In this document: piece by piece, positions 4,731 to 20,811 of the stretch | Layout of the letters: every line of letters begins with the position of its first letter | Position numbering within the stretch: the first letter of the stretch is position 1 | Source of the DNA: a virus | Strand: one strand, 5' to 3' | Length of the DNA stretch: 23,110 nucleotides | IMG/VR virus record: IMGVR_UViG_3300025099_000152 | Span: 1-23,110 of that record | The notes under the pieces: generated by a model | Told to the model about the DNA's origin: nothing | Database searches by the model: none | What the model saw: the letters and a program-made list of their open reading frames with translations, nothing else | Position numbers and translations under genes: made by a program

Positions 4731-4875
4731 TAGTTATAAAATAAGAGACGGAAAACATATTCCAACTGAAAAATATAAAGAAAACTGGGACAGTATATTT
4801 GGTAAAGATAAAACTAAAGAAGAGTTACCAAAAGAAGAAGAAGATTACATTAAGGAGTTAGAAAAAAAGATATGA
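4720..4875 (+). CDS. Small charged hypothetical protein between nrdA and nrdB
   Basis: A 51-residue ORF beginning MGFNSYKIRDGKHIPTEKY, followed by an EN-WDSIFGK segment and a Lys/Glu-rich C-terminal half that is probably helical. AAGGAG lies about 12 bases before the ATG. It overlaps the membrane-protein gene by 11 bases and its TGA overlaps the nrdB start as ATGA. Both junctions are typical of translationally coupled phage genes. No domain is recognised. Its place inside the nrd block suggests co-expression with the reductase, possibly as an accessory protein. That is inference from position only. Confidence 0.75.
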   Translation: MGFNSYKIRDGKHIPTEKYKENWDSIFGKDKTKEELPKEEEDYIKELEKKI

Positions 4876-5822: not shown

Positions 5823-5823
5823 A

Positions 5824-5836
5824 GTACCCTTTTTAG
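5824..5836 (+). promoter_or_regulatory. Candidate phage RNA polymerase promoter, copy 1
   Basis: GTACCCTTTTTAG, followed by AAGA, fills most of the 25-base gap between nrdB and the next gene. It is nearly identical to the copy at 20781 and shares its core with the copy at 9297. If the G at 5836 is +1, the layout resembles T7 promoters, which also end in TA followed by a G-started purine run. It lies where T7 has phi6.5. Assignment rests on repetition and position only. Confidence 0.55.
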
Positions 5837-5847
5837 AAGAAAACAAT

Positions 5848-6030
5848 ATGATTGACCAAGAAGATTTAGTTTTACCTGCAACAGTAGACGAATTAGTTAA
5901 ACTTTTAAACAAAGTTTATCCTGAAAAGTCTGCTGTTTTAACAGATAATCCTAATAAGATATACTTTGAAGCAGGTCAACGTGATGTTGTCAAGTTTATT
6001 AACATGTTAAAAGAGAGGACAGAGAAGTAA
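5848..6030 (+). CDS. Small hypothetical protein at the T7 gene 6.5 position
   Basis: A 60-residue protein (MIDQEDLVLPATVDELVKLL at its start) that looks globular, with a helix, a central strand near NKIYFEAG and a final helix RDVVKFINMLKERTEK. I recall similar short proteins in other marine podoviruses but cannot name a family or function. It is the first gene after the candidate promoter at 5824 and is followed two bases later by the next start. The Shine-Dalgarno is weak (GAAGA about seven bases upstream). Probably a real, transcribed gene of the late block. Confidence 0.75.
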   Translation: MIDQEDLVLPATVDELVKLLNKVYPEKSAVLTDNPNKIYFEAGQRDVVKFINMLKERTEK

Positions 6031-6032
6031 TT

Positions 6033-6251
6033 ATGTGTATGTCAAAGCCTAAAGCACCTCAGATTGTGCAAGCTCCTGCACCTATTCCACCGTCAGCGCC
6101 TATTGAAGAAGATAAAGCGCCTAAAGTAGAAACAGCAGTAGATATGGACAAAGATTTAGATTTGAAGAAAAAGAAAAAAGTTGGAACTACAGCTTTACAA
6201 ACATCTTCTGGTCTAAACATACCTACTACATCCGGTTTAAATATAACTTAA
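6033..6251 (+). CDS. Proline/lysine-rich small protein, gp6.7/gp7.3-like
   Basis: A 72-residue, apparently disordered protein directly before the portal gene. It starts MCMSKPKAP, resembling the MCFSPK start of T7 gp6.7. It then has a proline/alanine stretch, an acidic segment, a KKKKK run (45-49) and a tandem TSSGLNIP/TTSGLNIT at the end. The SGLNI ending recalls the GGGINI end of T7 gp7.3. Both T7 proteins are small virion components encoded just before the portal, and gp6.7 and gp7.3 are ejected or tail-associated. Homology is suggested by position, composition and the short end motifs, not by full alignment. It probably has a virion role. Confidence 0.65.
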   Translation: MCMSKPKAPQIVQAPAPIPPSAPIEEDKAPKVETAVDMDKDLDLKKKKKVGTTALQTSSGLNIPTTSGLNIT

Positions 6252-6255
6252 TATT

Positions 6256-7818
6256 ATGCATTATAATAATATGTTACAACAAAGCGCTAAAGAGCGATAC
6301 GAAACATTAAGACAACACAGAGAACACTTTTTAGATAGAGGACAAGAGTGTAGTGAATTAACTATACCTTCACTTTTACCACCAGACGGCTTTCATTCTT
6401 CTACAGATTTATATAATCCATTTCAATCCGTTGGCGCAAGAGGCGTTAACAACTTAGCAAGTAAACTTCTTTTACTTTTGCTTCCACCCAATTCCCCATT
6501 TTTTAGATTATCAGTATCAGGTAACGCTAAAAGAGATTTAGACCAACAAAAAGAAATTAAGTCTGAAGTAGAAAAATCTTTAGCAACTATTGAAAGAGAA
6601 GTCTCAAGTAAAATAGAACAACTTGCATTAAGAGTTAGTGTGTTTGAAGCATTAAAACATTTAATTGTAGCAGGTAATGTCTTAACTTACTTACCTAAAA
6701 AAGGAACTATGAGAGTATTTCCTTTAACAAATTTTGTATGTAAAAGAGATGCTTCAGGTAACATTGTAGAAATAGTTATTGAAGAAACTATTCATCCAAC
6801 ATATTTAGATGGCGACACATTAGAAAGAATTTCACAGTTTGAAGACTACAAACCAGATGAAGAGTGTGAACTTTACACACACATTTACAAATTAAACGAT
6901 AAAGAATTTTACACTTGTCAAGAAGTAAAAGGTGTTAAGATTGAAAGCTCACAAGGTACATACCCTATAGACAGTCTACCATACCAAGCATTAAGAATGG
7001 TAAGAGTAGACAATGAAGATTATGGGCGTGGTTATGTAGAAGAGTTTTTAGGTGATTTAAAATCATTAGAAGGATTATCTCAATCACTTGTAGAAAGTGC
7101 AGCTGCATCTTCTAAAGTAGTATTTATGGTAAGACCTAATTCTGTTACTAGAAAAAAAGATTTAGCTAATACTAGAAACGGTGACATAATTACTGGTAGT
7201 GGTGATGATGTAGCAGTATTACAAGCACAAAAACAATATGACTTACAAGTCGTAGAGAGAAGTATTGCTAAGTTAGAAGAAAGATTATCGTATGCTTTCT
7301 TATTAAATACAGCTATACAAAGAGATGCTGAAAGAGTAACAGCACAAGAAATTAGATACATGGCTCAACAATTAGAAACTGCTATGGGTGGTATATATTC
7401 ATTACTATCACAAGAGTTTCAATTACCTTTGGTGACCATATTAATGAAACGTATGTCTCAAGCAAATGAGATACCTTCATTACCTAAAAATTCTGTTAAG
7501 CCTACAATTATTACAGGTGTAGAAGCTTTAGGTAGAGGAAATGATTTACAAAAATTAAGAGAATTTGTTGCTGAGATTGCAAACTTAGCACAAGTAAATC
7601 CTGCTGTAGTACAAAGTTTAAATGCTCAGGATTTAATTAAACGTATTGCTACTGGTTTAGGTATTGATACGGAAGGTCTTGTTAAGTCTGATGAAGAACT
7701 TGCACAAGAACAATCAGCTCAAGAAGATGCTATGCAAAATCAACAGATGATGCAAATGGCAGAGAAGGCTATAGCACCCGCAGTACAAGGTGCTATGAAA
7801 CAATCACAAGAAGGATAA
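6256..7818 (+). CDS. Portal (head-tail connector) protein, gp8-like
   Basis: A 520-residue protein, close to T7 gp8 (536). It forms the dodecameric ring through which DNA is packaged and to which the tail attaches. N-terminal features typical of the family are RYETLRQHREHFLDRGQECSELTIPSLLP and NNLASKLLLLLLPPNSPFFRL (residues about 63-85). A long C-terminal part includes RDAERVTAQEIRYMAQQLE, the conserved VTAxEI helix. The C-terminus is Gln/Met-rich. No Shine-Dalgarno precedes the ATG, so the gene probably depends on coupling to the stop five bases upstream. An in-frame ATG at 6271 is an alternative start. Confidence 0.95.
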   Translation: MHYNNMLQQSAKERYETLRQHREHFLDRGQECSELTIPSLLPPDGFHSSTDLYNPFQSVGARGVNNLASKLLLLLLPPNSPFFRLSVSGNAKRDLDQQKEIKSEVEKSLATIEREVSSKIEQLALRVSVFEALKHLIVAGNVLTYLPKKGTMRVFPLTNFVCKRDASGNIVEIVIEETIHPTYLDGDTLERISQFEDYKPDEECELYTHIYKLNDKEFYTCQEVKGVKIESSQGTYPIDSLPYQALRMVRVDNEDYGRGYVEEFLGDLKSLEGLSQSLVESAAASSKVVFMVRPNSVTRKKDLANTRNGDIITGSGDDVAVLQAQKQYDLQVVERSIAKLEERLSYAFLLNTAIQRDAERVTAQEIRYMAQQLETAMGGIYSLLSQEFQLPLVTILMKRMSQANEIPSLPKNSVKPTIITGVEALGRGNDLQKLREFVAEIANLAQVNPAVVQSLNAQDLIKRIATGLGIDTEGLVKSDEELAQEQSAQEDAMQNQQMMQMAEKAIAPAVQGAMKQSQEG

Positions 7819-7822
7819 TTAG

Positions 7823-8581
7823 ATGGTAGATAAAGTAGAAATACAGGAAGAAGAAACTGGTATTGAACAACCAGTAGAACAAACAAACGAGACACAGTCG
7901 GCACAAAGTAAACCTGAAGGCTTGCCTGAAAAATTCAACAGTGTTGAAGATTTAGCAAAGTCATATGCAGAGTTAGAAAAGAAACTTGGTGGACAATCTC
8001 AAGAAACAAAAGACGAAGTAGACCCAGTTGCTAAAGCAACACCTAAGTCTGATAATAATTTAGAAATAGCTGAGAAAGCTGTTACTGATGCAGGTTTAGA
8101 TATGTCTTCTTTACAAGCAGAGTATGCTGAAAAAGGTGAGTTAGATACAAAGTCTTATGAAGCTTTAGAAAAAGCAGGCATATCAAAAGAATATGTGGAT
8201 AGTTACATTGCAGGTCAAGAAGCTATTGCTAAAACACAAGCAGATGAAATTAAATCTACTGTTGGTGGTGATGACACATATCAGGAGATGGTTGACTGGG
8301 CTTCTAAAAATATGACTGAAGGTGAAAAAACTGCTTACAACAAAGCTGTAAACAGTGGTGACATGGACACAGTTAAACTAGCTGTCAATGCACTTAAAGG
8401 TCAATTTGAAAGAGCTAATGGTGTTGAGCCTAAACTTGTAGAAGGTAAAGCACAACCAAGTCAAGAACAAGGTTTCTTGTCATGGGCTCAAGTAACAGAG
8501 GCTATGGCTGACCCTAGATATGCTAAAGATATGGCATATCAAAACGAAGTTAAAAATAAATTAGCTAACAGTAACTTATAA
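7823..8581 (+). CDS. Capsid assembly scaffolding protein, gp9-like
   Basis: A 252-residue acidic, Glu/Gln/Lys-rich protein between portal and capsid genes, where T7 gene 9 lies (307 residues). KPEGLPEKFNSVEDLAKSYAELEKKLG near residues 31-57 is typical of this scaffold family. The C-terminal part (GFLSWAQVTEAMADPRYAKD, then EVKNKL) resembles the helical capsid-binding end. It is expected to drive prohead assembly and leave before DNA entry. The start is preceded by GGATAATTAG. Confidence 0.92.
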   Translation: MVDKVEIQEEETGIEQPVEQTNETQSAQSKPEGLPEKFNSVEDLAKSYAELEKKLGGQSQETKDEVDPVAKATPKSDNNLEIAEKAVTDAGLDMSSLQAEYAEKGELDTKSYEALEKAGISKEYVDSYIAGQEAIAKTQADEIKSTVGGDDTYQEMVDWASKNMTEGEKTAYNKAVNSGDMDTVKLAVNALKGQFERANGVEPKLVEGKAQPSQEQGFLSWAQVTEAMADPRYAKDMAYQNEVKNKLANSNL

Positions 8582-8582
8582 T

Positions 8583-8816
8583 ATGTGGTTAATAGCATTA
8601 AAAAAACTGTATGACGCAGAGGTTGCGGAGAGTACAGCAGTTATTGATACATTTTTAAAAAATTCTGTTGGTGTTGCAGACCATGATAATTTTATGAAAA
8701 CTATAAAATCACAGTTTGATAAATTAGTACATGCAAAACATGCCATATCAGAAATTGATGAAATAACTAAAAACGTAACAGAAGGAAAAAACAATGTACG
8801 GAAAGAAAAAAGCTAA
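8583..8816 (+). CDS. Hypothetical helical protein between scaffold and capsid
   Basis: A 77-residue protein predicted almost wholly helical (MWLIALKKLYDAEVAESTAV, then a mixed-charge second half). It begins one base after the scaffold stop, has no strong Shine-Dalgarno, and overlaps the next tiny gene by 23 bases in another frame. No family is recognised. T7 has no gene here. Location suggests a role in head assembly or structure, but this is inference. Confidence 0.7.
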   Translation: MWLIALKKLYDAEVAESTAVIDTFLKNSVGVADHDNFMKTIKSQFDKLVHAKHAISEIDEITKNVTEGKNNVRKEKS

Positions 8817-8898
8817 AGGTAAAAAAATGTTAAAAGGTGGACAGAAAAAACTACCTGCTGCATTACAGAAAAAAATAATGAAAGCTAAAAAGAAGTAA
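8794..8898 (+). CDS. 34-residue lysine-rich mini-protein
   Basis: MYGKKKAKGKKMLKGGQKK followed by a short helix and KAKKK. Fifteen of 34 residues are lysine and there is no acidic residue. AAGGA lies about eight bases upstream of the ATG. The stop TAA shares its last base with the next ATG. MYGKKK-type mini-proteins occur between scaffold and capsid genes of many marine phages as far as I recall. Function is unknown. Binding to DNA or to the acidic scaffold is plausible from charge alone. Confidence 0.7.
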   Translation: MYGKKKAKGKKMLKGGQKKLPAALQKKIMKAKKK

Positions 8899-9047
8899 TG
8901 GCTAAAAGAGGACTGTACGCCAACATCCATGCGAAGCGTAAACGTATCGCTGCGGGTTCTGGTGAGAAAATGCGGAAGGTAGGAGCTAAAGGTGCACCTA
9001 CTAAAAAACAATTTAAAAGAGCGGCAAAAACAGCTAAGAAAAAGTAA
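8898..9047 (+). CDS. 49-residue basic protein (GLYANIHAKRKRI type)
   Basis: MAKRGLYANIHAKRKRIAAG, then SGEKMRKVGAKGAPT and a KKQFKRAAKTAKKK tail. Eighteen of 49 residues are Lys or Arg with one acidic residue. The ATG and the next gene's ATG both use taATG overlaps. The GLYANIHAKRKRI...GSGEKMRK...GAPT pattern is one I recognise as recurrent in marine phages and environmental sequences, without known function. Codon choice (CTG, GCC, ATC, GCG, CGT, CGG) is GC-richer than its AT-rich neighbours, which suggests recent transfer or strong conservation. Confidence 0.8.
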   Translation: MAKRGLYANIHAKRKRIAAGSGEKMRKVGAKGAPTKKQFKRAAKTAKKK

Positions 9048-9292
9048 TGCCGGCTAAAAAATATCAGTCACCTTCCGGCGGTTTAAATGCTGCCGGGAGA
9101 AAATATTTTAAAAGAAAAACTGGTGCTAACTTAAAAGCTCCAGTCACAGGAAAAGTTAAACGTGGTTCTAAAGCAGCCAAACGTAGAGCTAGTTTCTGTG
9201 CACGTATGTCCGGAGTAAAAGGTGCAATGAAAAAACCTAATGGTAAACCTACAAGAAAAGCTCTAGCATTACGTAAATGGAAGTGTAGATAG
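9047..9292 (+). CDS. 81-residue basic protein, possibly DUF6321 family
   Basis: MPAKKYQSPSGGLNAAGRKY, then LKAPVTGKVKRGSKAAKRRASFC, then ARMSGVKGAMKKPNGKPTRKALALRKWKCR. It has 26 Lys/Arg and no Asp/Glu, with cysteines at 51 and 80. The SPSGGLNAAGR...APVTGKVK...RRASFCARMSGVKG...RKALALRKWKC signature is a recurrent marine-phage family that I associate with DUF6321; the accession is from memory. The start overlaps the preceding stop. Role unknown. It lies directly upstream of the capsid leader and may bind nucleic acid. Confidence 0.8.
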   Translation: MPAKKYQSPSGGLNAAGRKYFKRKTGANLKAPVTGKVKRGSKAAKRRASFCARMSGVKGAMKKPNGKPTRKALALRKWKCR

Positions 9293-9296
9293 TTGT

Positions 9297-9309
9297 GCAC
9301 CCTTTTTAG
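9297..9309 (+). promoter_or_regulatory. Candidate phage RNA polymerase promoter, copy 2 (capsid)
   Basis: GCACCCTTTTTAG followed by GGGG, starting four bases after the stop of the 81-residue protein and 145 bases before the capsid ATG. The core CCCTTTTTAG is identical to copy 1. The G-run at the presumed start makes it closest to a T7 class III promoter (TATAGGG). Its place matches T7 phi10, the strong promoter of the capsid gene. A CCC/GGG hairpin could also form here, so a terminator role is the main alternative. Confidence 0.55.
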
Positions 9310-9441
9310 GGGGCAACTTGCCAACACATATTTAATAAAGTGTAATAACTTGACCACCTGCGGGTGACAATCTTGAATGTGAAACTGAAACATATGTAGA
9401 GGCTTTTATAAATAAACGTCATAACATAATAGGAGAACACT
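9310..9441 (+). promoter_or_regulatory. Capsid mRNA leader with palindrome and strong ribosome binding site
   Basis: About 130 non-coding bases, long for this compact genome. GGCAACTTGCC (9312-9322) is a perfect palindrome able to form a small hairpin near the 5' end of a transcript from copy 2, much as the T7 phi10 leader begins with a stem-loop. CACC-TGCG-GGTG is a second small hairpin near 9353-9364. AGGAG at 9431-9435 lies six bases before the capsid ATG. No ORF is seen. Confidence 0.45.
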
Positions 9442-10419
9442 ATGGCAAATGCAAGTCCAGTATCAGTTGGAAGAGTAAATGCAAGTGGTTCGGAAGACGC
9501 TCTGTTTCTGAAAGTTTTTGCGGGAGAAGTACTTACTTCTTTTGATAGAGCTTCAGTAACTCAAGGTGCAGAAATGGTTAGAAGTATTTCTAACGGTAAA
9601 TCTGCAACTTTCCCAGTAATGGGTAGAGTGGATGCTTCGTACCATACAGCAGGTGCTGAAATAACTGGTTCAGATGTAAACCACAACGAGAAAGTTATTA
9701 CAATTAATGACCTTCTTTTATCTTCAGTATTTTTATCAAATATTGAGGAAGCAAAAAACCATTGGGATGTAAGAAGCGCTTACTCTACAGAAATTGGTAG
9801 AGCGTTAGCTTTCCAAAAAGATAAGCATATCTTACAAACAATTGGTCAAGCAGCACAAGCTTCTGCAAACGTAGCCGACAGCGGTTATGCAGCAGGAACT
9901 GTACTTACAAACACAGGTATTGCTTCAGCTACTGCTTCAACAGCAGCGAACGCAATGATTGATAGTTTGTTTGATGCGGCTAAACAATTAGATGCAAACT
10001 ACGTTCCAAAAGAAGGTAGAAAAGCATTTATCAAATTAGAAGAGTACTACAAATTAGCAAACGGTACTAACGTAACTAACGTTGACTTCTCAGGTCAAGG
10101 TTCAATTGCGGAAGGTAAAGTTGTTAAAGTAGCAGGTATTGAATTAGTACCTACTGCACACTTTGTAGCGTCTAACGTAACTGCGGCTCCGGATGCAGGT
10201 TCAGCAACTGCGGGTGGTTCAAACCCTCAAGCTGTTGACTTATCAAACTACGTATGTTTGGTATCTCATCCTTCTGCTGTAGGTACTGTAAAACTTATGG
10301 ATTTAGCTGTTGAAAGCGAATATGATATAAGAAGACAAGGTACTCTAATGGTTGCTAAGTACGCTATGGGACACGGTGTCCTAAGAGGCGAGGCAGCTGT
10401 AGGAATTAAAGAAGCGTAA
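9442..10419 (+). CDS. Major capsid protein, gp10A-like
   Basis: A 325-residue HK97-fold shell protein. It matches T7 gp10 at many points: ALFLKVFAGEVLTSFDRASVT near residues 20-40, MVRSISNGKSATFPVMGR, NEKVITINDLL, IEEAKNHWDVRSAYSTEIG, and near the C-terminus SAVGTVKLMDLAVE and VAKYAMGHGVLRGEAA. Slightly shorter than T7 gp10A (345). A good AGGAG precedes the start and its codon use is richer in C-ending codons than its neighbours, fitting very high expression. No slippery site resembling the T7 gp10A/10B frameshift was noticed at its end. Confidence 0.97.
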   Translation: MANASPVSVGRVNASGSEDALFLKVFAGEVLTSFDRASVTQGAEMVRSISNGKSATFPVMGRVDASYHTAGAEITGSDVNHNEKVITINDLLLSSVFLSNIEEAKNHWDVRSAYSTEIGRALAFQKDKHILQTIGQAAQASANVADSGYAAGTVLTNTGIASATASTAANAMIDSLFDAAKQLDANYVPKEGRKAFIKLEEYYKLANGTNVTNVDFSGQGSIAEGKVVKVAGIELVPTAHFVASNVTAAPDAGSATAGGSNPQAVDLSNYVCLVSHPSAVGTVKLMDLAVESEYDIRRQGTLMVAKYAMGHGVLRGEAAVGIKEA

Positions 10420-10429
10420 TAGCTTAACT

Positions 10430-10479
10430 TTAATATTATTAGTGGCGGTAGAGGGAGACTGAAGCCGCCGCTATATTAA
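10430..10479 (+). terminator. Large stem-loop after the capsid gene (Tphi-position terminator candidate)
   Basis: AGTGGCGG (10441-10448) pairs with CCGCCGCT (10465-10472) with one G-T wobble around a 16-base loop. TTAATAT (10430-10436) pairs perfectly with ATATTAA (10473-10479), separated by a 4-base bulge on the 5' side. The GC-rich stem is striking in this AT-rich DNA and lies in the 73-base gap after the capsid gene, where T7 has its terminator Tphi. There is no long T-run after it, so it may instead be an RNA-processing or mRNA-stability element. Confidence 0.6.
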
Positions 10480-10492
10480 CTAATAGGATATT

Positions 10493-11098
10493 ATGACTAC
10501 ACAGATTACACCAACTACGGAACTACAAGCGATAAACATAATGTTGTCTGTTATCGGTGAGGCTCCAGTTAACTCAATTACAGGCACTACATCCGTTGAT
10601 GTAAGTACAGCAAAAAATCTTTTAGATGAAACTTCTATGTCAGTTCAATCTCAAGGATGGCATTTCAATACACATGAAAATTATAAAAACTTGGCATTAG
10701 ACCAAGATAGCAAAATTCCCCTACCTTCAAACTGCGTTAAAGCTGACGCTAGTAAAAACTTTAGATACATAAATGTTACATTAAGAAATGGTTTTCTATA
10801 TAATTTAGAAACACATACAGATGTTTTTACAACAGTACCAGAAGTAGATTTAGTTTTAGTACAACAATTTGAACAACTTCCAGAATACGCAAGACAATAC
10901 ATTACACAAAAAGCATCAAGAAGATTTGCTTCAAGATTTTTAGGTGATGCTCAAATTGTGCAATTAATTGGACAAGATGAAAATGAAGCACTTATGGCAT
11001 TTCACCAAGCAGATAGTCAAGAAACTGATGTGAATATGCTAGAAGGTGATAGCAATACTTACTCAATAATTAATAGACCAACTAGAAGGACTTATTAA
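10493..11098 (+). CDS. Tail tubular protein A, gp11-like
   Basis: A 201-residue protein (T7 gp11: 196) that forms the ring joining the portal to the nozzle. Typical features are ELQAINIMLSVIGEAPVNSI (about 10-29), AKNLLDETSMSVQSQGWHFNTH (42-63), IPLPSNCVKADAS, and QLPEYARQYITQKASRRFASRFLGD near 127-151. AGGA precedes the ATG by several bases. The stop shares a base with the next start (taATG), so it is coupled to tail protein B. Confidence 0.95.
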   Translation: MTTQITPTTELQAINIMLSVIGEAPVNSITGTTSVDVSTAKNLLDETSMSVQSQGWHFNTHENYKNLALDQDSKIPLPSNCVKADASKNFRYINVTLRNGFLYNLETHTDVFTTVPEVDLVLVQQFEQLPEYARQYITQKASRRFASRFLGDAQIVQLIGQDENEALMAFHQADSQETDVNMLEGDSNTYSIINRPTRRTY

Positions 11099-13590
11099 TG
11101 GGTGGAGTAGTATCTCAGAGTATTCCTAATTTTCTGAATGGTATCTCACAACAAACACCAACACAGAGAGGTATCAATCAAGCAGAAGAACAGGTAAATT
11201 TACAAAACAATATTGTAGATGGTTTATCTAAAAGACCTGCTTTTGAATATATAGACACTATAGATGCTACTAATGTATTTCCTAACACTGTAAAGTTTTG
11301 GTCTATACAAAGAGATAAAGATAATCAATTTGTTGTTATATTTTATAATGGTGGTGTAAAAGTTTATGATTTAGATGGTAATGAAAAACCTGTTACAATA
11401 GCAAGTGGTAGTAGTTATTTAACTTCAACTAATCCTAAAGCAGATTTTAAATTAGTTAACATTGCAGACTACACTTTTGTTGCAAATAAACAAACTACAG
11501 TTTTAGCAGATACAAACACAAGTGCTGCAAAGATAGAAGAATTTTATATTAATGTTGTTACATCTAATTATGGTAGAGAATATGCTGTAACAGTACAACA
11601 TCCTAATATGTCTTATGCTGTTAAATCTTCTTTACAAATGCCAAGTGGTAGTAATTTAAACCATGATGCTGTGTTTAGAGATACAGCACACATTGCTGAT
11701 ATTTTATTTAGAGGTACGTCTAGTACTTATTTTGATTCATCTTCAGATGCTGATTTTAAATTAACTAGAGAAGACACAGGTGCAACTTTAAGCACAACTC
11801 AAGGATTAGGAACATCTTCGGAAGTAACTAATTATTTTACTATGTCTCAATATCCGGGTGTTATTAGAGGTGTTTCAACAAATGGCAATAGTAATTACAC
11901 AGTGTTAACAGCTGATGGTTCTGGTAATACCGGTATGTATTCTATAAGAGATGAAATATCTGACTTTACAAAATTACCTTATCATGCAAGTACTGACAGT
12001 ATTATAAAAGTTACAGGTGAAGATGGAGATACATTATCTGATTATTATGTAAAGTTTGAAACAGATGGTGTTTGGAAAGAAACTATAGGTCAAGATGTAA
12101 GTCTTGGTTTAAATAACTCTACATTACCGCATGCTTTAATAAATAATAATGATGGTACATTTACATTTCAAGAAATAGATTGGGATGATAGAAATGCAGG
12201 AGATGGAATTACAAACTCTAATCCAAGTTTTGTAGGAAACCAAATTAATAATTTATTGTTTTATAAAAATAGATTAGGCATGCTTTCAAGAGATAATTTA
12301 ATTCTATCTGAAAATGCAGGTTTTTTTAATTTCTTTTCTAAAACAGTTACACAAGTATTAGATACAGACGCAATTGACATTGCAGCTTCAGGTTCTGAAG
12401 TTAATACACTATTTGATAGTGTTGCATTTAATGAAAGTTTATTATTATTTTCTGAAAAAGCACAATACAAATTAGGAAGTGTTGGAGAAACAATATCTCC
12501 CACAAGTGCTGTTCTTAATGAAGTATCAGCATTTGAATTTGATGCAAAGGTAAAACCTGTATCAGCAGGTAAGTATGCATACTTTGCACAAGCAAGAAAT
12601 AATAATACAGCAATTAGAGAGTATTATGCAGATGATGATACATTAACTAATGATGGTTTAGACATTACAGTGTCAGTACAAAATTTAATACCAAGTAATG
12701 CATATCAATTAATTAGTAATACAACTGAAGATACTTTAATTACATTAGCTTCAGATACAGCAGACACACAAACGGCACCTTATACTACAGGTACAAATAT
12801 TACATCAACTAATGGTGGTACTATGTTTATTTATAAATACTTTTTTGATAAAGGTGAAAAAGTACAAACTGCTTGGTCTAAATGGACATTTGATAATGCT
12901 AAAATATTAGGCGGTATGTCTTTTGAAAGTTTTGTTTATTTATTAGTAGTAGAAGGAACAGATACTAAATTAGTAAAAATTGATTTAAGAAATTTAAGAA
13001 ATGGTACTATAGGTTTTAACATATATTTAGATTTAAGAAAAAGTGTTACAGGTACATATGATGCTAATACAAATTTAACTACGTTTACATCTCCGTATGG
13101 AGCTAAAACAGGTTTGATAGCAGTAGATGGTGTTAACGGAAATAACTATTCTGTTACAAATACAGCCGGCTCTACTTACACAGTAGAAGGTGACCACACA
13201 AATTTAATTATTGGTATTCCATATGAAAGTAAATATAGAATGTCACCACAGTACGTTAGAGAAAACTCAGGAAGAGGTTTGGTAGCAATAACATCAGGTC
13301 GTTATCAAATTAGAAACATATCATTAAATTATGAAACTTCAGGATATTTCCAAGTTGAAGTAACACCTAATGGTAGAGATACAAGTTTTTCATTTATGAA
13401 TGGATATGTTATTGGAACAGCTACAAGTAAAGTAGGTGTACCTGCTATTAGTTCAGGAACTATTAAGGTACCCGTTTCATGTAGAAACACAGATTTTACA
13501 TTAGATATTAAAAGTTCTTCACACCTGCCAATGTATATTGCTAGTGCAGAGGTAGAAGGATATTATCATAATCGTTCAACAAGGATTTAA
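11098..13590 (+). CDS. Tail tubular protein B (nozzle), gp12-like
   Basis: An 830-residue protein (T7 gp12: 794) that forms the hexameric tail nozzle. The N-terminus MGGVVSQSIPNFLNGISQQT, followed by QRGINQAEEQVNLQNNIVDGLSKRP, is diagnostic of the family. Further family blocks are NNLLFYKNRLGMLSRDNLILSENAGFFNFF around 380-415 and AQYKLGS. The beta-rich, Thr/Asn-rich remainder fits a beta-propeller tail protein. The end lies directly against the next start (TAAATG). Confidence 0.96.
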   Translation: MGGVVSQSIPNFLNGISQQTPTQRGINQAEEQVNLQNNIVDGLSKRPAFEYIDTIDATNVFPNTVKFWSIQRDKDNQFVVIFYNGGVKVYDLDGNEKPVTIASGSSYLTSTNPKADFKLVNIADYTFVANKQTTVLADTNTSAAKIEEFYINVVTSNYGREYAVTVQHPNMSYAVKSSLQMPSGSNLNHDAVFRDTAHIADILFRGTSSTYFDSSSDADFKLTREDTGATLSTTQGLGTSSEVTNYFTMSQYPGVIRGVSTNGNSNYTVLTADGSGNTGMYSIRDEISDFTKLPYHASTDSIIKVTGEDGDTLSDYYVKFETDGVWKETIGQDVSLGLNNSTLPHALINNNDGTFTFQEIDWDDRNAGDGITNSNPSFVGNQINNLLFYKNRLGMLSRDNLILSENAGFFNFFSKTVTQVLDTDAIDIAASGSEVNTLFDSVAFNESLLLFSEKAQYKLGSVGETISPTSAVLNEVSAFEFDAKVKPVSAGKYAYFAQARNNNTAIREYYADDDTLTNDGLDITVSVQNLIPSNAYQLISNTTEDTLITLASDTADTQTAPYTTGTNITSTNGGTMFIYKYFFDKGEKVQTAWSKWTFDNAKILGGMSFESFVYLLVVEGTDTKLVKIDLRNLRNGTIGFNIYLDLRKSVTGTYDANTNLTTFTSPYGAKTGLIAVDGVNGNNYSVTNTAGSTYTVEGDHTNLIIGIPYESKYRMSPQYVRENSGRGLVAITSGRYQIRNISLNYETSGYFQVEVTPNGRDTSFSFMNGYVIGTATSKVGVPAISSGTIKVPVSCRNTDFTLDIKSSSHLPMYIASAEVEGYYHNRSTRI

Positions 13591-14070
13591 ATGACCAGAG
13601 AAAACTACGTACGACCCGCTATACTAAAAGATACTTTAGAATTAGCACCTAGAATACGCCAAGCTGACCGTGCAGAGATTAGAGCATCTAATAACTCTTC
13701 ACCTTTGCAAGCTTTAGTGTTTCCATTTACGGAACCTAATGGTAAAGTTTATAGTATTATAGGTACAGCAGATGAAGGTGTTATAGGTATGTTTGGTGTT
13801 GCTAAATGTGCTGAGCCTGACTATGGCGTAGCATGGATGTTGTCTAGTGAAACACTATTTAAACATACAAAACAATTTATAAAAGAATGTCCGTATTGGA
13901 TAGATGAGATGGGTAAAGGTTATAAATATCTTTATAACTTTGTAGACAAAAGAAATTGGAAGTCACTTAAATGGCTTCAGTATTTAGGCTTTGAACCAAA
14001 AACTGAAATAGGAGATTATGGTTTTGGTAAAATGCCATTTTTATTAATGATGAAGGAGATAAACAATTAA
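13591..14070 (+). CDS. gp13-like protein with GNAT fold
   Basis: A 159-residue protein at the position of T7 gene 13 (138 residues). The T7 product is needed for internal virion protein assembly and resembles GNAT acetyltransferases. Visible GNAT-like elements are VRPAILKDTLELAPRIRQADRAEI at the start, a central GVIGMFGVAK strand pair, and YKYLYNFVDKRNWKSLKWLQYLGFE near 111-135, which matches the helix-turn (N-x-x-S-x-x-x-x-x-x-x-G-F) at the end of such folds. The acetyl-CoA loop is not obvious, so a purely structural role is likely. The start directly follows the previous stop. Confidence 0.8.
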   Translation: MTRENYVRPAILKDTLELAPRIRQADRAEIRASNNSSPLQALVFPFTEPNGKVYSIIGTADEGVIGMFGVAKCAEPDYGVAWMLSSETLFKHTKQFIKECPYWIDEMGKGYKYLYNFVDKRNWKSLKWLQYLGFEPKTEIGDYGFGKMPFLLMMKEINN

Positions 14071-14072
14071 CT

Positions 14073-14606
14073 ATGTGTGATGCAGTATCGGCAATAACTG
14101 CCGGATTGAAAATAGCTACAGCAGTACAAGATTACAGAAGCAAAAAAGTAGTCGCAGAAAGTCAAGAACAAGCAAACGCAATAACAAGAAAAAATTCTGA
14201 CCAAGCATATTTAAATGATTTAGCTAAAATAGATGCAGAAAAAGTAGCAGCAAGTAGAGAAAAGAAAGCAGAAGATTTTAGAATATCTCAAGAAAACAAT
14301 AAAAAAGAAGCACAAGCATTAAACATGAACGCAGGTAATGGCACTAAAATTATACAAGACATTGCAGGTACATATGATATGCAGTTTTTAGATGTTGCAA
14401 GAGATTATGAAACAGATGTAATTAAATTAATGTATCAAGAAGATGATGCATATGCTGCACAACAAAGAAGATATAATAGTATTAAACCTGTCGTAATGCC
14501 TAGTCAAACAGGATTATTATTACAAGTAGCAACAGCAGGCGCTGAAGGTTATCAAATGAATAAAGCATTAACTAAACCAGATACAGGAGAGGTAGTAGCA
14601 CCATAA
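14073..14606 (+). CDS. Internal virion protein, gp14-like
   Basis: A 177-residue, Ala/Gln/Lys-rich, mainly helical protein (T7 gp14: 196). It starts MCDAVSAITAGLKIATAVQD with the short Met-Cys start and hydrophobic N-terminus seen in T7 gp14. A long coiled helix follows (about 25-95), then NGTKIIQDIAGTYDMQFLDVARDYETD and a DDAYAAQQRRYNSIKP segment. In T7 this protein is ejected and forms the outer-membrane pore of the ejectosome. It overlaps the next gene by one base (taATG). Confidence 0.9.
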   Translation: MCDAVSAITAGLKIATAVQDYRSKKVVAESQEQANAITRKNSDQAYLNDLAKIDAEKVAASREKKAEDFRISQENNKKEAQALNMNAGNGTKIIQDIAGTYDMQFLDVARDYETDVIKLMYQEDDAYAAQQRRYNSIKPVVMPSQTGLLLQVATAGAEGYQMNKALTKPDTGEVVAP

Positions 14607-16723
14607 TGGCATATAAATCAAGAGTAACAAATAAATACATGGGCTCTACGTTTGCAGGTAGAGTAAACGCAGCCACCGCAACAGATGCAACAGATTTAAT
14701 TAACATTTTAAAAAAAGACGTTAATCCTGCTATTAGCAGAATAATGGTTAAAAATGTTGAAAACAAAAAAGATGAAGCTGTACAAGAAATTAATCAATTG
14801 TTAACTACAAGAGATGCTGACACAGTTCAAAAAGAAATACTAGAAGGTAAACATCCTAATTTAAATAATAAATATGTACAAAAAACTGTACAATATCACA
14901 CAGGAAGACACCAAGCTATTGATGCTATTACACAGATAGAAGCCAATAAAGATAAATATGATTTTCAAACAACTAATCTACCTGCTTTTTACAAAGAATA
15001 TTTACCAAGTTTTGCAGATAAAGATGGTTCATATGCTTTAGGATTTGCAGCTGTATTTAATAATTATAAAGCTAAAGATGCTATTAAAGACGCAAAAGTA
15101 AGAAGTGACTTTGCACAAACAGAAAAATTAAAAGAAGGTGCAAAAATAGTTTCACGTACAGAACCAGAAGATTTTTGGAATGAAGTAAATAGTTTACACA
15201 CACCGCTTCCACCAGAAGAAGGTGGAACAGTCAGAAGATATTTATATACAAATAAAGAAGCTAATGATGCTGCACTTTTATTTCTTAACAACGCTATTGA
15301 TGGAGCTGCAAGTACTGCTGATTTAGCTAAAATAGAAGATATTATAAACATGGACAGAGGAATTGGTAAAGGTGGAAACGAATTAGGTTCATTAAGAAGT
15401 GTTAAAAACAATCCTGATATTGCAAAAGTTATTGAAGCTTATGAAAATAAAAATAGAACATTAGCTAATGCGGAATATACAGCATCTGTTAGAGCTAAAG
15501 AAAAAGATAAAAATGACAGAATAGAAAGTATATTTAGCATAGATAGAAGTACAGTTGAAGGTGAGCTAGAATATCAAACACAAAAAAGAGAAGCTGTTAA
15601 AATACATCCATCTTTAAATATAACTTTAAACAGTATTGCTAAAAACAATTTAGAATTATTTGAAGACCAAAACAAAATTGCAAACATACAAATAGATATA
15701 ATGAATGGTTTATATAATAATAATGAAAATGGTTTATTAGAAGCTTATAGAGATGCATCAAACAATCCAGAAACATTAGTGTTGTTAAACAAGATGCTAG
15801 TAGATGCAAAAACAAGAGAAGCAAATGCATACACGCCACCATTTCAAGAAAAAGCATTTACAAATACAGTTGGTAAAATTAACAAAATAATTGTAGACTT
15901 AGTTCCTGCTGTAGATAAAAAATATAATTCACAAAAAAATCAATATGTGTCAGATTTAATTCAACAAGAAATGCAAAAAGATTATATGGAATGGTTGTCA
16001 CAACATCCTAGACCTTTAAAATTAGCTGATGCCAGTGAAAAAGATGCGTGGAATTTAAAACAACAAGAGTTCTTTACTAAAACATATAATGAAAAAATAC
16101 AAACATATTCTAATCAAACATGGTTAAATGGTTTAGCAGATAGAATAAACAAAGAAGGAATAGATTTAACTTCTTCTATTGACTTAGATGATATAGTAGT
16201 TGAGTATTATGAAAGTAATGTTGCAAGTGCAGTAGAAACTTTCAAACCTTTTGCAACTCAGATTACTTCACAGGCAGAAGCTAGTTTATTGTCGCCAGTT
16301 ACAGTAATGATGGAAAGTGCAGATTTTCAAAGATTATTAAATACAAAAGGATTTGAAAATTTTAAAACTGATAAAGTAGCACAACAGTCATTAGCAGAAA
16401 GATTAATTAAAGATTTAGAAATAGAAAATACTGATTACACTGACCAAATAAATCAAGTAATAGATAGTATAAACGAAAACATACAAACGTTTGACCTTCC
16501 TAAAATTGAAACATATACACCTTTAGGTTTATTTGAAAAAGGTGACAGTGTAGAAGCACAACAAAATTTCTTTGTAGATACGCTTGAGCAACTTACAGGA
16601 AGACCAATAACTAAAGATTTATACAATAGAGTTCTAAGTGAAGACGCTAAGTTAAATTTAGCAAAAGCATTTAACATTAGTTCAGTTCAATTAGATGAAT
16701 TGGTTAGTGAATATTTAAAATAA
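14606..16723 (+). CDS. Internal virion protein, gp15-like
   Basis: A 705-residue protein (T7 gp15: 747) at the gene 15 position. N-terminal MAYKSRVTNKYMGSTFAGRV, a largely helical middle with many Lys/Glu/Asn, and a C-terminal LPKIETYTPLGLFEKGD segment. In T7 gp15 lines the periplasmic tube of the ejectosome and works with gp16. Identity rests on order, length and general character more than on sharp motifs. Coupled to the preceding gene by taATG. Confidence 0.88.
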   Translation: MAYKSRVTNKYMGSTFAGRVNAATATDATDLINILKKDVNPAISRIMVKNVENKKDEAVQEINQLLTTRDADTVQKEILEGKHPNLNNKYVQKTVQYHTGRHQAIDAITQIEANKDKYDFQTTNLPAFYKEYLPSFADKDGSYALGFAAVFNNYKAKDAIKDAKVRSDFAQTEKLKEGAKIVSRTEPEDFWNEVNSLHTPLPPEEGGTVRRYLYTNKEANDAALLFLNNAIDGAASTADLAKIEDIINMDRGIGKGGNELGSLRSVKNNPDIAKVIEAYENKNRTLANAEYTASVRAKEKDKNDRIESIFSIDRSTVEGELEYQTQKREAVKIHPSLNITLNSIAKNNLELFEDQNKIANIQIDIMNGLYNNNENGLLEAYRDASNNPETLVLLNKMLVDAKTREANAYTPPFQEKAFTNTVGKINKIIVDLVPAVDKKYNSQKNQYVSDLIQQEMQKDYMEWLSQHPRPLKLADASEKDAWNLKQQEFFTKTYNEKIQTYSNQTWLNGLADRINKEGIDLTSSIDLDDIVVEYYESNVASAVETFKPFATQITSQAEASLLSPVTVMMESADFQRLLNTKGFENFKTDKVAQQSLAERLIKDLEIENTDYTDQINQVIDSINENIQTFDLPKIETYTPLGLFEKGDSVEAQQNFFVDTLEQLTGRPITKDLYNRVLSEDAKLNLAKAFNISSVQLDELVSEYLK

Positions 16724-16737
16724 TATAGGAATAAACA

Positions 16738-19700
16738 ATGGCATTAGATTTAGGAATTTCTTTTACAGAAGATGATACGCTAACAAACACAGAGAAGGGT
16801 ATGGCTTCTCATAAAAAGAATAGAAGAAACAGAATAGAACGTAAAAAATATGATGCTATGCAAAAAGCTGAGCGTCAAAAACTTGCACTAGACAAACTAC
16901 AATCTGATGATTTTCAAAATGTATTACGTAGATACTATGAAGGTGGTTTAACTGATGCAAACAATGCTGTTACTGGTGGTAAAGCAATTAAAGATTACAC
17001 TAAAACTGAATTAATAGAAAAATTTTATCAAGACAGAATTTGGAGTGAGTACAATACAGCAGGTATTATTAATGATGTTGGACAAGTATTAGCTAAGGAT
17101 GACCAGTACAAAGGTGACTGGGCAGAGATTACACAGTTGTATGCTGACTTACCTTATTTTGGTGGTGAAACAATTGGTTTTTACAAGTGGGCTAAAGATT
17201 TTGTACCTGCATTAATAGCTGACCCAATTAACTTATTTAGTTTAGGTGCAGGTAAAATTGTTGTAAGAGAAGCAGGTAAAACTGCAATAAGTGCTTTAAG
17301 TAAAGCTGAGTTTCAAAAACAAGTAGCTAAAAAAGCTGCATTAGAAATAGGTAAAAAAGAAGCTATGTATGGTGGTAGTGTTGCCGTAGCCGCTGACTTA
17401 GCTAGACAAACTGCTGAAAAAGATGCAGGATTAATGACTGATTATAATTTAACTAGAACATTAATTACAGGTGCAACAGGTGCTGTAGCACAAGGTACAA
17501 TTGGTGCCGGCATGTCTGCATGGTCTGCCAAAGGTAAAGCAGGTAAGTTTTATGACAAAGGTGATGGCTTTAAGTCTGACTTTGACAGAGACTTTGCGTG
17601 GGCAGGAAGTAAAGCTGATGAAACCTTTTCAGGTAAAGATGGTAAAGTAAAAAAATTCAAACCAGAAAATTCATCTAAGAAAAATCCCAAAAGAGTAACA
17701 GAAAGAACAAGTGAAGTAGAGACGATAAACAACAAAGTTAATGAAATTAAAAGACGAACACCTATTATTAATTTATCTAAAATCAAACCAGATGATGACC
17801 ATAATGTTATTATTCAAGAAATTAAAAACTCTGTAAATAAATTAGTTAAAGAAGGTAATGTTAGAACAACAGAAAGAGTTGGTCTATTTAGACAAATACA
17901 ATTAAAAGCTGCTAAATTATTAGGTAAAGAAAATGCAGAAAAACTAGATGAAGAATTAAAAACAATTGCAAAAATATCACCAGACTTAGCACCTACTATT
18001 TATGCAGGTCGTGTTAACATAGTAAACAAAAGTAAAGAAGTTTCTGAAATTAGAACATTAGCAGATAATGCTGTTGACATGGATGAGAAAATTGCAATTA
18101 CAAATAAATTAATAGAATCTTTAGATGAAAAATCTATATTAATTAAAAACCATGTAGAAACAGTACAAGGTGTTTCTGACGCATTAAACCAACAAAAATT
18201 AATGGTAGAAATGACCGAAGCTGATAAGTTAAGAATAGAAACAGATATAGCATTAAAAGAAGAATTACCAATATTAATTGCTAAAATTAAAAAATTAAAA
18301 CCGGCACAAAAAATAAAAGCTGTTAATGATTTAGCTGATATAAGTAAAAATGATTACAAAATGAATAAAGTAATTAAAAACATTAATAGAAAATTAAAAC
18401 AAAAAGATGTTACTTTTTTTGAAGCTTACAATGAATACACAACAGCAAACTTACTAGGTGACCCTACTACACATGAAATTAACTTACTGTCTGCCGCAGT
18501 TAAATTTCAAACACAAATTGTAGAACAGTTTGCAGGTGGTTTAATTAGTTTTGGAAAAGGTAATAGAAGACAAGGTATAAATCAAATTAAAATGGCAGGT
18601 GATTTATTAATTGCACAAACAAGATTTTTTCAAATAGCATTTAAGAAAGCTAAGTTATCATGGAAAGCTAATAGAAGTATTGGTGACAGTTTAGAGCACA
18701 GATTTGATGGTAGACAACAAAGAAACATGGAAACATACTTTGAACAATTAAAAGCTTCTGACAGTATTATCAAACAAGTTGCAGCTAAAGCAGCTACACC
18801 GCTTGGTAAATTATCTTTTCTTACTTTAAGATTACTGGGTGCCGGTGATACTTTAATGAAAAACATTTTTAACAGAGCAGGAAGAGTTGCCAATGTTAAT
18901 CAAAGAATGAGAACTTTTTATCCTGAATTATGGAAAGAAAGAAAACTATTTAACAAATCAAGTATTGTTGATTTACAAGATAACATAAGAAATACTAAAG
19001 AAAATCTTAGATTTGAAACAGCACAAGATAAACCTAATGTTAAAAGAATAGAAAAATTAAATAAAAAATTAACAGAATTAGAAAAAATTAAAGTAGAACA
19101 AACACCATTTGAAAAAAAATGGTCTGAGTTATATTATCAATATGAAGATGAATTTGGTAATTTTAAAGAAACAAAAACATTTAATAAACTAGAAGCATCA
19201 TCATTAGATGACTTAACTAAATCAGTTGCAAACGACCCTACATATATTGCTCGTAGTGGTTCATTTACACAAAATCTTAAAAATGAGATGTTAGATGCTA
19301 ACCAATTTTATCCAGACCAAAAACAAAGTGGTGCTAATATTGGTGATTGGTTATTAAAAACTGTTAATAAAGCTCCATTACTTAGAGTGCTTACAAGTTT
19401 ACACTTTGTAAAAACTCCTGTTAACTTATTTAAATATGGTTGGCAAGCAACTCCTATACTTAATAAATTAAACATGGAATTTAGAGCTATGCAAAATGCT
19501 TCTGACCCTATTGTTAGAAACAAAGCACAATCTATTCAAGGTGTAGGTGCGGCTGTGTATGGTTTAGCAACTTACCTAACACTACAAGGTAGTTTAACAG
19601 GATATAGAGAAAAAGATAGAAAACACAGATTTGCTTATAAATGGCAAGATGAAAATGGTGTTACACAATACACACAACTTTCTCGTTTCTTTCCTTTATC

Positions 19701-20775
19701 AATTCCGTTTATGGTTACAGCATCAATACAAGATGCATTAGAAGAAGCAGGTGATATATTTAATGACCCATTACATAGTGCAGAACAAGAAAGATACATG
19801 GATTTTATGCGTCATATTGCAGGGTCATCATTTTCTTTATGGTCTAACATTTTTGCTAGTAATTTAATGACACAAGATTTCTTTAAATTAACTGAGATAT
19901 TTTCTGAAACAGAAGCTACTAATGAAGAAGGAGCTGCTAACATTTCTAAATTAGAAAGATATTTTGGAAGATTTACTTCTAAAAATGTACCATTAGCTAC
20001 GTCATGGAGATGGACAAATAAAGTATTTGCAGACGGTGAAGCAGAACTTGTAACAGCTTTAGACCATTTAAAACAATCAACACCTTATGGTTTATCTAAA
20101 ATAATAAATGAAAAATACTTAGGTGGTAAATATGATATATTAAATTATGGAGATGCATTATCACCAAAATCTGACCCGTTGGGAAATGAATATGCAAAAC
20201 CTAGAGGATTGTTACTAGGTCAAGTACAAGATATGTTTCCTGTTACTTCACATTGGAGTAATAACATGGTAGACAGTAACGGAAATAAAATTGTATTATC
20301 ACCGGCAGCTAGAGAAAAATTAGAAACTTCTAATATTAAATGGGAAAGACCTCAGTTTACTATTCAGCTTGGAACTAAAAAACCATTGAATATGAAATTA
20401 ACTACAGCTATTCAATACAAACATCCGGTTACTGGAGAAACAATTAAATTTCCAGAAGGCATTACTATGTACGAAGCAATGCGTCAAGTTAAAGGTCAAA
20501 TTAAAATAGCAGGAAGAACTTTAAATGAAACATATCAATATGAGTTAGAAAATCCTAATTCTGAATTTAATAAAAGATATGCTTCTAATAAACTTCTTGG
20601 CGGTAAATATATTGGTGATGATTACCTATTACAACGAATAAGAGAATTTGAAAGAGAAGCTAGAGAGTGGATTAAAAGCAATGCTTTGATTGATATTAAT
20701 GGTAAAATCACTACAGCTAGTGCACTTAAACGTAGCGCAGAAACCATTGAATTTATGGAATTAATAGGTGAATAG
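16738..20775 (+). CDS. Internal core protein, gp16-like, without visible transglycosylase
   Basis: A 1345-residue protein (T7 gp16: 1318), the largest gene here. In T7 gp16 is ejected and forms the inner-membrane conduit for DNA entry, and its N-terminus carries a lytic transglycosylase. Here the N-terminus begins MALDLGISFTEDDTLTNTEK and is then basic and helical (HKKNRRNRIERKKYDAMQK), with no lysozyme-like ES or GLMQ motif seen. Hydrophobic stretches occur near 155-180 and 235-262 (TRTLITGATGAVAQGTIGAG). A late conserved-looking block, about 936-1010 (VGAAVYGLATYLTLQGSLTGY through RFFPLSIPFMVTASIQDALE), may be membrane-interacting. AGGA precedes the ATG. Confidence 0.9.
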   Translation: MALDLGISFTEDDTLTNTEKGMASHKKNRRNRIERKKYDAMQKAERQKLALDKLQSDDFQNVLRRYYEGGLTDANNAVTGGKAIKDYTKTELIEKFYQDRIWSEYNTAGIINDVGQVLAKDDQYKGDWAEITQLYADLPYFGGETIGFYKWAKDFVPALIADPINLFSLGAGKIVVREAGKTAISALSKAEFQKQVAKKAALEIGKKEAMYGGSVAVAADLARQTAEKDAGLMTDYNLTRTLITGATGAVAQGTIGAGMSAWSAKGKAGKFYDKGDGFKSDFDRDFAWAGSKADETFSGKDGKVKKFKPENSSKKNPKRVTERTSEVETINNKVNEIKRRTPIINLSKIKPDDDHNVIIQEIKNSVNKLVKEGNVRTTERVGLFRQIQLKAAKLLGKENAEKLDEELKTIAKISPDLAPTIYAGRVNIVNKSKEVSEIRTLADNAVDMDEKIAITNKLIESLDEKSILIKNHVETVQGVSDALNQQKLMVEMTEADKLRIETDIALKEELPILIAKIKKLKPAQKIKAVNDLADISKNDYKMNKVIKNINRKLKQKDVTFFEAYNEYTTANLLGDPTTHEINLLSAAVKFQTQIVEQFAGGLISFGKGNRRQGINQIKMAGDLLIAQTRFFQIAFKKAKLSWKANRSIGDSLEHRFDGRQQRNMETYFEQLKASDSIIKQVAAKAATPLGKLSFLTLRLLGAGDTLMKNIFNRAGRVANVNQRMRTFYPELWKERKLFNKSSIVDLQDNIRNTKENLRFETAQDKPNVKRIEKLNKKLTELEKIKVEQTPFEKKWSELYYQYEDEFGNFKETKTFNKLEASSLDDLTKSVANDPTYIARSGSFTQNLKNEMLDANQFYPDQKQSGANIGDWLLKTVNKAPLLRVLTSLHFVKTPVNLFKYGWQATPILNKLNMEFRAMQNASDPIVRNKAQSIQGVGAAVYGLATYLTLQGSLTGYREKDRKHRFAYKWQDENGVTQYTQLSRFFPLSIPFMVTASIQDALEEAGDIFNDPLHSAEQERYMDFMRHIAGSSFSLWSNIFASNLMTQDFFKLTEIFSETEATNEEGAANISKLERYFGRFTSKNVPLATSWRWTNKVFADGEAELVTALDHLKQSTPYGLSKIINEKYLGGKYDILNYGDALSPKSDPLGNEYAKPRGLLLGQVQDMFPVTSHWSNNMVDSNGNKIVLSPAAREKLETSNIKWERPQFTIQLGTKKPLNMKLTTAIQYKHPVTGETIKFPEGITMYEAMRQVKGQIKIAGRTLNETYQYELENPNSEFNKRYASNKLLGGKYIGDDYLLQRIREFEREAREWIKSNALIDINGKITTASALKRSAETIEFMELIGE

Positions 20776-20780
20776 ATAAA

Positions 20781-20793
20781 GTACCCCTTTTAG
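20781..20793 (+). promoter_or_regulatory. Candidate phage RNA polymerase promoter, copy 3 (tail fibre)
   Basis: GTACCCCTTTTAG followed by AAGAG, in the 36-base gap between the gp16-like gene and the tail fibre. It shares AAAGTACCC, TTTTAGAAGA and the short distance from the preceding stop with copy 1. It lies where T7 has phi17. The AGAAGAG at its end may also act as a weak ribosome binding site for the fibre ATG. Confidence 0.55.
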
Positions 20794-20811
20794 AAGAGAT
20801 AAACACAAATT

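Follow-up and report, generated by a model that had tools for sequence, protein, structure and literature searches.

The viral DNA stretch IMGVR_UViG_3300025099_000152, 23,110 bases long and referred to below as the window, carries a repeated word of the form CCC(C/T)TTTTAG in which two elements appear to have been read as one. The copies at 5824, 20781 and 2436 would be promoters for the RNA polymerase of the phage, while the copy at 9297 would be part of a hairpin in the leader RNA of the major capsid gene; we give this reading a probability of about 0.9. The original prediction had taken the copies at 5824, 9297 and 20781 together for a distinct promoter class at T7-like places. This proposal is upheld at 5824 and 20781, where the recurrence of the motif in relatives and its covariation with the specificity loop of the polymerase indicate that it very probably represents promoters of the cognate enzyme, and it fails at 9297, where the hairpin is kept and the word is lost. 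The window is a fragment of a Pelagivirus, i.e., a T7-like SAR11 phage, because its portal protein is 98.5% identical to that of HTVC142P and 96.3% identical to that of HTVC031P, the nearest isolates. The RNA polymerase gene lies outside the fragment and is present in eleven whole isolate genomes; the HTVC142P enzyme matches T7 RNA polymerase (E 4e-138), so the lineage encodes a T7-like polymerase.

The three predicted copies are all found on the plus strand, GTACCCTTTTTAG at 5824-5836, GCACCCTTTTTAG at 9297-9309 and GTACCCCTTTTAG at 20781-20793, and each begins shortly 3′ of a stop codon, at distances of 2, 5 and 6 bases, respectively. A fourth copy on the same strand, GTTCCCCTTTTAG at 2436-2448, had been overlooked inside the exonuclease gene, and the gaps holding the first three were wrongly described as the only ones, a further 73-base gap being found 3′ of the capsid gene. 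Four CCC(C/T)TTTTAG words in the window compare with 0.02 expected from 100 dinucleotide-preserving shuffles. When the window was scored with a position weight matrix (PWM), a check proposed along with the original prediction, the sites at 2436 (30.4 bits), 5824 (29.9 bits) and 20781 (29.2 bits) came out on top, the next site reached 10.5 bits, and the copy at 9297 ranked below the first 14. Training of the matrix used 30 sites from five isolates, with the window excluded, and this ranking is not an independent test because the training sites are homologous to those of the window. The word at 9297 reads GC instead of GT at −12/−11. It also differs in its predicted fold, a stable hairpin of −11.9 kcal/mol, versus −4.0 (weak) at 5824 and −0.1 kcal/mol at 20781.

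In the promoter layout proposed here, a TAA within an AT-rich stretch (−16 to −14) would be followed by the hexamer GTNCCC (−12 to −7) and an AT-rich melting stretch, with transcription starting at or beside TA|G. The predicted promoter at the phi6.5-like place (5819..5840, plus strand) comprises GTACCC at 5824-5829, a spacer of any four bases (N4) and TA|G, with a putative +1 at G5836. The one 5′ of the tail fibre gene (20776..20797, plus strand) reads GTACCC-CTTT-TA|G, with +1 at G20793, and the one in the exonuclease gene (2431..2452, plus strand) reads GTTCCC-CTTT-TA|G, with +1 at G2448. Five isolates, HTVC142P, HTVC031P, Eistla, HTVC168P and HTVC109P, carry GTNCCC-N4-TAG on both sides of the polymerase gene, after the ribonucleotide reductase (RNR) beta gene and before the tail fibre gene, throughout on the coding strand. 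The site equivalent to 5824 has GTGCCC in the first four and GTACCC in HTVC109P, and all five have the site equivalent to 20781. The HTVC031P and HTVC142P polymerases are predicted to start at TA|G on AAAGTACCCATAGTAGAATGG, and ATTAAAGTACCCATAGTAGAATGG is the site after the polymerase gene. An additional copy lies near the right genome end of HTVC142P and HTVC109P; T7 carries phiOR near its right genome end.

The motif is also enriched in the intergenic DNA of relatives, as the original prediction would require. When all 64 triplets XYZ were compared in the pattern GT-N-XYZ-N4-TAG, CCC made up 19 of the 24 matches located between genes on the plus strand of the window and four near isolates, with six more CCC matches within genes and none on the minus strand; in this count, the start of one small gene each in HTVC142P and Eistla was shifted to the start of its homologues, which makes the RNR beta site intergenic there. 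Matches numbered 3 to 8 in the six sequences examined this way, compared with 0.02 to 0.13 when each sequence was shuffled 60 times. The top triplet depends on the clade: it is CCC in HTVC109P and in HTVC120P/134P, ACA in HTVC019P/022P and TCA in HTVC021P. HTVC019P and HTVC022P have (G/C)TTACA-CT(A/T)T-TAG 3′ of the polymerase gene, 3′ of RNR beta and 5′ of the tail fibre gene, HTVC022P carrying GTTACACTATTAG at 6677 and 41895 in addition to CTTACACTTTTAG sites. HTVC021P has GTTTCA-CTTT-TAG 3′ of RNR beta and 5′ of the tail fibre gene, and GT(T/A)CCC-(C/T)TAT-TAG flanks the polymerase gene on both sides in HTVC120P and HTVC134P. The base frequencies in one set of loci are biased, since these loci were picked by the motif itself.

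Hexamer and specificity loop have changed together among pelagiphages. Two sets of loci were compared, the first comprising 79 of 80 contigs (the incomplete L249 was dropped) plus 11 isolates, and the second 82 of 90 rows (L249, L354, L357-L359, L369, L373 and L375 were left out as incomplete, repeat contigs or HTVC019P). GTNCCC followed by a spacer of 4 or 5 bases stands beside the polymerase gene at 103/103 loci whose enzyme has a KPRI loop, i.e., 86/86 with KPRIN and 17/17 further ones. The spacer at the 86 KPRIN loci (contigs and isolates) is N4 in 63 and N5 only in 23, and 20 loci among L270-L301 keep the five-base distance from GTNCCC to TAG in both flanks of the polymerase gene. FAPQI loops go with (G/C)TTACA in 34/34 loci, 31/31 with Arg and 3/3 with Gln at the position of T7 N748. 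Loops of the VETH..IQSTI or VDAH..IQPQI type go with CCTGC(C/A) in 10/10 loci, and KVRSH..IQPVI loops with GTCTCC in 2/2. None of the 82 second-set loci shows the pattern of another class. Two contigs of the VETH class (L371/L040 and L352/L047) have CCTGCT-CTTT-TAG after RNR beta as well.

The HTVC109P and HTVC142P enzymes are 75% identical overall and 96% identical in the 26-residue loop, and share GTNCCC; HTVC120P, at 47% identity to HTVC142P, retains the IKPRIN loop and GTNCCC, and HTVC019P, at 68%, has FAPQIK and GTTACA. HTVC142P K683 aligns with T7 N748, a residue described as contacting −10 and −11 (PMC5937735), and Glu or Asp at this position accompanies CC in pelagiphages, like Asp with CC in T3. 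The loop, in HTVC142P K683 together with I691-K692-P693-R694-I695-N696, would be the part of the enzyme that reads the hexamer. The recurrence, strand, place and covariation of the sites are observed, and binding by the phage polymerase, the start site and promoter strength are inferred.

Other functions have been considered for these sites. The location of the motif in gaps, and near the right genome end in two isolates, would suit host promoters of the sigma-70 type or a DNA signal of another sort, for example for replication or packaging. However, the motif follows the loop of the phage polymerase and not the host, as HTVC019P, HTVC021P and HTVC031P share the host HTCC1062 yet differ in their motif, and there is no match in HTVC010P, a SAR11 phage with no annotated polymerase. 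The host promoter was rejected on the ground that the motif tracks the phage polymerase, and this group of explanations as a whole is very improbable. The original prediction had itself named RNA processing sites and short terminators as alternatives. Processing sites would account for copies directly 3′ of stop codons, and T3 has RNase III stem-loops adjoining its promoters; an RNA element does fit 9297. Yet the window has no stable hairpin at 20781 and only the weak one at 5824, the hexamer follows the DNA-reading loop of the polymerase, and one copy is conserved within a coding gene, so that processing sites in place of promoters at the intergenic copies are hardly to be expected. Termination by the phage or host polymerase is suggested by the T-run present in every copy and has next to nothing in its favour beyond it: no stable stem precedes the T-run at 5824 or 20781, and at 9297 the T-run lies in the loop, with TTGCC coming after the stem, for which reason an intrinsic terminator was rejected there. 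A T7 promoter in the strict sense was also rejected; the motif, with its GTNCCC hexamer, is unlike the T7 consensus TAATACGACTCACTATAG, as originally noted.

Promoters remain the preferred interpretation of the copies at 5824 and 20781, as well as of the one inside the exonuclease gene. There, the motif encodes Asn-Val-Pro-Leu-Leu. Of 26 distinct contexts, 25 use CCC for Pro, a codon that makes up 71 of the 1980 Pro codons of five genomes, and adjacent codons vary. In the window and the five isolates, TAA is conserved at −16 to −14 as well, out of frame. Protein coding alone does not seem to explain this conservation well. The homologous exonuclease codons of HTVC019P, HTVC022P, HTVC021P, HTVC120P, HTVC134P and HTVC119P do not show the motif of their own clade; consequently, an internal promoter is proposed for the clade of the window and HTVC109P only.

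The copy at 9297 belongs to a different kind of element, a conserved leader RNA of about 150 bases (9292..9441, plus strand) that accompanies the major capsid gene and contains two kept hairpins and probably one long-range helix. The window scores 147 bits with the covariance model, of which it is itself a member. The first hairpin, P1 (GTTGTGCACCCTTTTTAGGGGGCAAC, 9292..9317, plus strand), starts on the final base of the stop codon before it, and the word at 9297-9309 covers the greater part of the 5′ arm, the loop and two bases at the beginning of the 3′ arm. P2 (9338..9351, plus strand) is a short AAGU/ACUU hairpin with weak support (77-81% of cells paired). P3 (9355..9366, plus strand), CACC-UGCG-GGUG followed by GACAAUC, is paired in 99-100% of cells, with compensation at 4/4 pairs. 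P4 (9320..9403, plus strand) is a candidate long-range helix of GCC 9320-9322 and GGC 9401-9403, paired in 90-98% of cells; its complement before the T-run occurs in 46 of 51 rows, for a short helix that depends on the alignment. RNAalifold alone gave P1 and P3, and P2 and P4 were added by eye.

One could consider that all three originally listed copies are promoters, with the capsid copy as the phi10 equivalent and the hairpin incidental, as the same 13-mer pattern stands at the phi10 place in the window, HTVC142P and Eistla. This is very unlikely, given the low PWM rank of the copy, its GC at −12/−11, and the loss of the word in HTVC031P and HTVC168P, both of which retain their other sites. 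In a fairer set, made of the best 80 capsid loci among those listed by protein similarity, P1 is cut off in two (L018 and L052), and the 78 loci with a complete P1 all form the hairpin by plain folding, without the model, while the 13-mer is present in 12 and broken in 66. The inner stem varies as CGCT/AGCG in HTVC031P, CCGT/ACGG in HTVC168P and ACGC/GCGT in HTVC019P. Because base pairing is conserved and the word is lost, the copy at 9297 is taken not to be a promoter. No promoter of the GTNCCC class was found in the capsid leader, and the nearest predicted upstream one in the window is that at 5824.

The structure of the leader was further assessed on alignments. Alignment A2 holds 51 distinct leaders, chosen by a GTTG..CAAC pattern and five of six inner pairs, and six of them contain the 13-mer. 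Each of the ten P1 pairs forms in every row that has both bases, and five compensate; P3, which is outside the selection pattern, is 99% paired, with all four pairs compensating. Overall, 94.2% of A2 cells are paired, versus 79.7% after shuffling and 37-49% with partners slid, and the covariation score is 0.413 versus 0.134. In A3, the alignment of capsid loci fitted to the model, all five measures exceed every shuffle and all ten P1 pairs compensate. At 80/80 capsid loci, the match to the model stops precisely at the capsid start codon. In Rfam 15, no family matches the leader at or near its gathering score. Outside pelagiphages, the model gave weak capsid-start matches only (KM23-C739, CRP-171, E 0.02; CRP-804, E 0.028; CRP-403, E 2.4), the one in P-SCSP2 (E 0.18) being weaker than an off-target match (E 0.079) in the same locus, and none was listed in LUZ100 or RHEph21. 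The leader is not claimed outside pelagiphages because these matches are weak and the start codon in the model aids their placement; P3-like hairpins were seen there by eye.

Several observations weigh against this account. The contigs are not independent, the flank pairs of the 86 KPRIN loci being of 48 distinct kinds. At KPRIN loci, GTAACA was seen in three downstream matches. By the patterns used, 19 of the 82 second-set loci show no site beside the polymerase gene, their loops being of the RVCSH..FAPQI, RVKSN, RIKSN, RVDAH..IQPVI and KVKSH types. In the VETH class, the −7 base is variable, and the site after RNR beta was missed by a search requiring C or A there. Among the isolates, the RNR beta and tail fibre sites of HTVC120P/134P read GGCCCC or GACCCC-ATAT-TAG, HTVC019P/022P have no site 5′ of the polymerase gene, and HTVC119P and HTVC021P have none beside it, HTVC021P carrying its variant elsewhere and HTVC119P showing no recognised one. 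The window's own enzyme is presumed from isolates with 96-99% identical portal proteins. Regarding the leader, the choice of A2 rows partly builds in P1 pairing, two of the five A2 measures, namely how many pairs compensate and how many pair types occur, are not above those of the shuffles, and its suggested function is read from structure and place.

Transcription of the leader would begin upstream, most likely at the promoter predicted at 5824, and the leader itself is probably cis-acting, serving the processing or stability of the capsid message or controlling its translation. As LUZ100 (L216 6741-6816) and RHEph21 (L217 6765-6838) have a tRNA-Asn 5′ of the capsid gene, message processing is plausible, translation control being the main alternative. 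By eye, the P1 arm GUUGU could alternatively pair with the conserved ACAAU/C after P3, to the exclusion of P1. More tentatively, and with the odds rather against it, the leader may represent a novel type of phage RNA that acts in cis to set how much capsid is made in an abundant group of ocean phages, taking the place of a capsid promoter, perhaps by switching.

Other features were seen around the capsid gene. In RHEph21, an abiF RNA match (38 bits; gathering score 37) also lies 5′ of the capsid gene. Group I intron matches (gathering score 50) in L209 (HTVC120P, 19599-19781, 48.6 bits) and L221 (KM23-C739, 7700-7880, 78 bits) sit at the junction of two annotated pieces of the capsid coding sequence. 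The gap 3′ of the capsid gene has a hairpin with GGGAGACT in its loop in L203, L204, L206, L209, L210 and L213, likely a terminator at the place of T7 T-phi, which lies after the capsid gene.

Several known systems resemble the pelagiphage elements. The strong KP34 promoter is T(A/G)ATGTTACAGGAGTA|G, with its start mapped just after TAATGTTACAGGAGTA (PMC6834552). It shares with the pelagiphage motif a hexamer at −12 to −7, a 4-base spacer, TA|G and a place just after the polymerase gene, and with HTVC019P in particular the GTTACA hexamer at the same spacing and an Arg at the N748 position. In contrast, the clade of the window has GTNCCC, a T-rich or ATAG spacer and a different remaining loop. 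T7 RNA polymerase is described as reading two blocks, an AT-rich one (−17 to −13) and a recognition block (−11 to −7) (PMC10138996). T7 and T3 promoters are similar in their AT-rich, recognition and melting blocks and purine start, in addition to the Asp and CC of T3 mentioned above, but their recognition sequence differs, the pelagiphage motif has one more base before the start, and no pelagiphage promoter was found before the capsid gene. An extra base between recognition block and start is also reported for the Jarilo promoter (PMC11475235); given this base, the pelagiphage hexamer would meet roughly the contacts that the T7 recognition block makes. The Syn5 promoter ATTGGGCACCCGTAA (PMC3950665) is a short marine phage promoter with CACCC that differs in spacing and register. 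LUZ100 (PMC10134795) is likewise a T7-like phage with altered promoter specificity, but its phi6 and phi7 contain AATTACCACACAGT, and a tRNA-Asn precedes its capsid gene. The leader resembles Rfam cis-regulatory families in being a covarying cis element, while matching none of them.

The gene content of the window comprises DNA polymerase, exonuclease, RNR alpha and beta, portal, scaffold, capsid, tail tube and tail fibre genes. On the plus strand, the RNR beta gene (4872..5822, phrog_86) lies 5′ of the promoter predicted at 5824, the major capsid gene (9442..10419, phrog_267) lies 3′ of the leader, and the tail fibre gene (20812..23110, phrog_21412) lies 3′ of the promoter predicted at 20781 and runs off the window. 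In the early region of related genomes, RNAs resembling hammerhead ribozymes were seen in L204 (HTVC031P; 289-343, 1301-1367 and 2048-2153), L206 (465-550 and 1226-1292) and L203 (643-725). They match type III (E 2e-6), type II and RAGATH-1, all under Rfam gathering scores, and are possibly self-cleaving sites between early genes.

Phage promoters of the T7-like kind are well known; no description of the sequence class, the pelagiphage code or the leader RNA turned up in the open-licence literature, as far as this was covered. Within that scope, the only promoter given for a pelagiphage T7-like polymerase is a computed guess, AACTAATGCTCAATTTAGAGATA, assigned to the HTVC031P enzyme (PMC11475235), which is not among the eight active enzymes named there. 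This sequence occurs once in the HTVC031P genome (L204 33805-33827), inside the gp42 coding sequence, and the guess looks wrong. RNA-seq of HTVC022P infection is public (PMC12753301, BioProject PRJNA1253180); a word count finds neither 'promoter' nor 'motif' in its text. Pelagiphages are described as ubiquitous and abundant (PMC10504331). Altogether, the GTNCCC motif offers a concrete replacement for the computed HTVC031P promoter and a way to read the HTVC022P data, the capsid leader is a further structured RNA, one that has no entry in Rfam, and the pelagiphages offer natural pairs of polymerase and promoter with a readable code.

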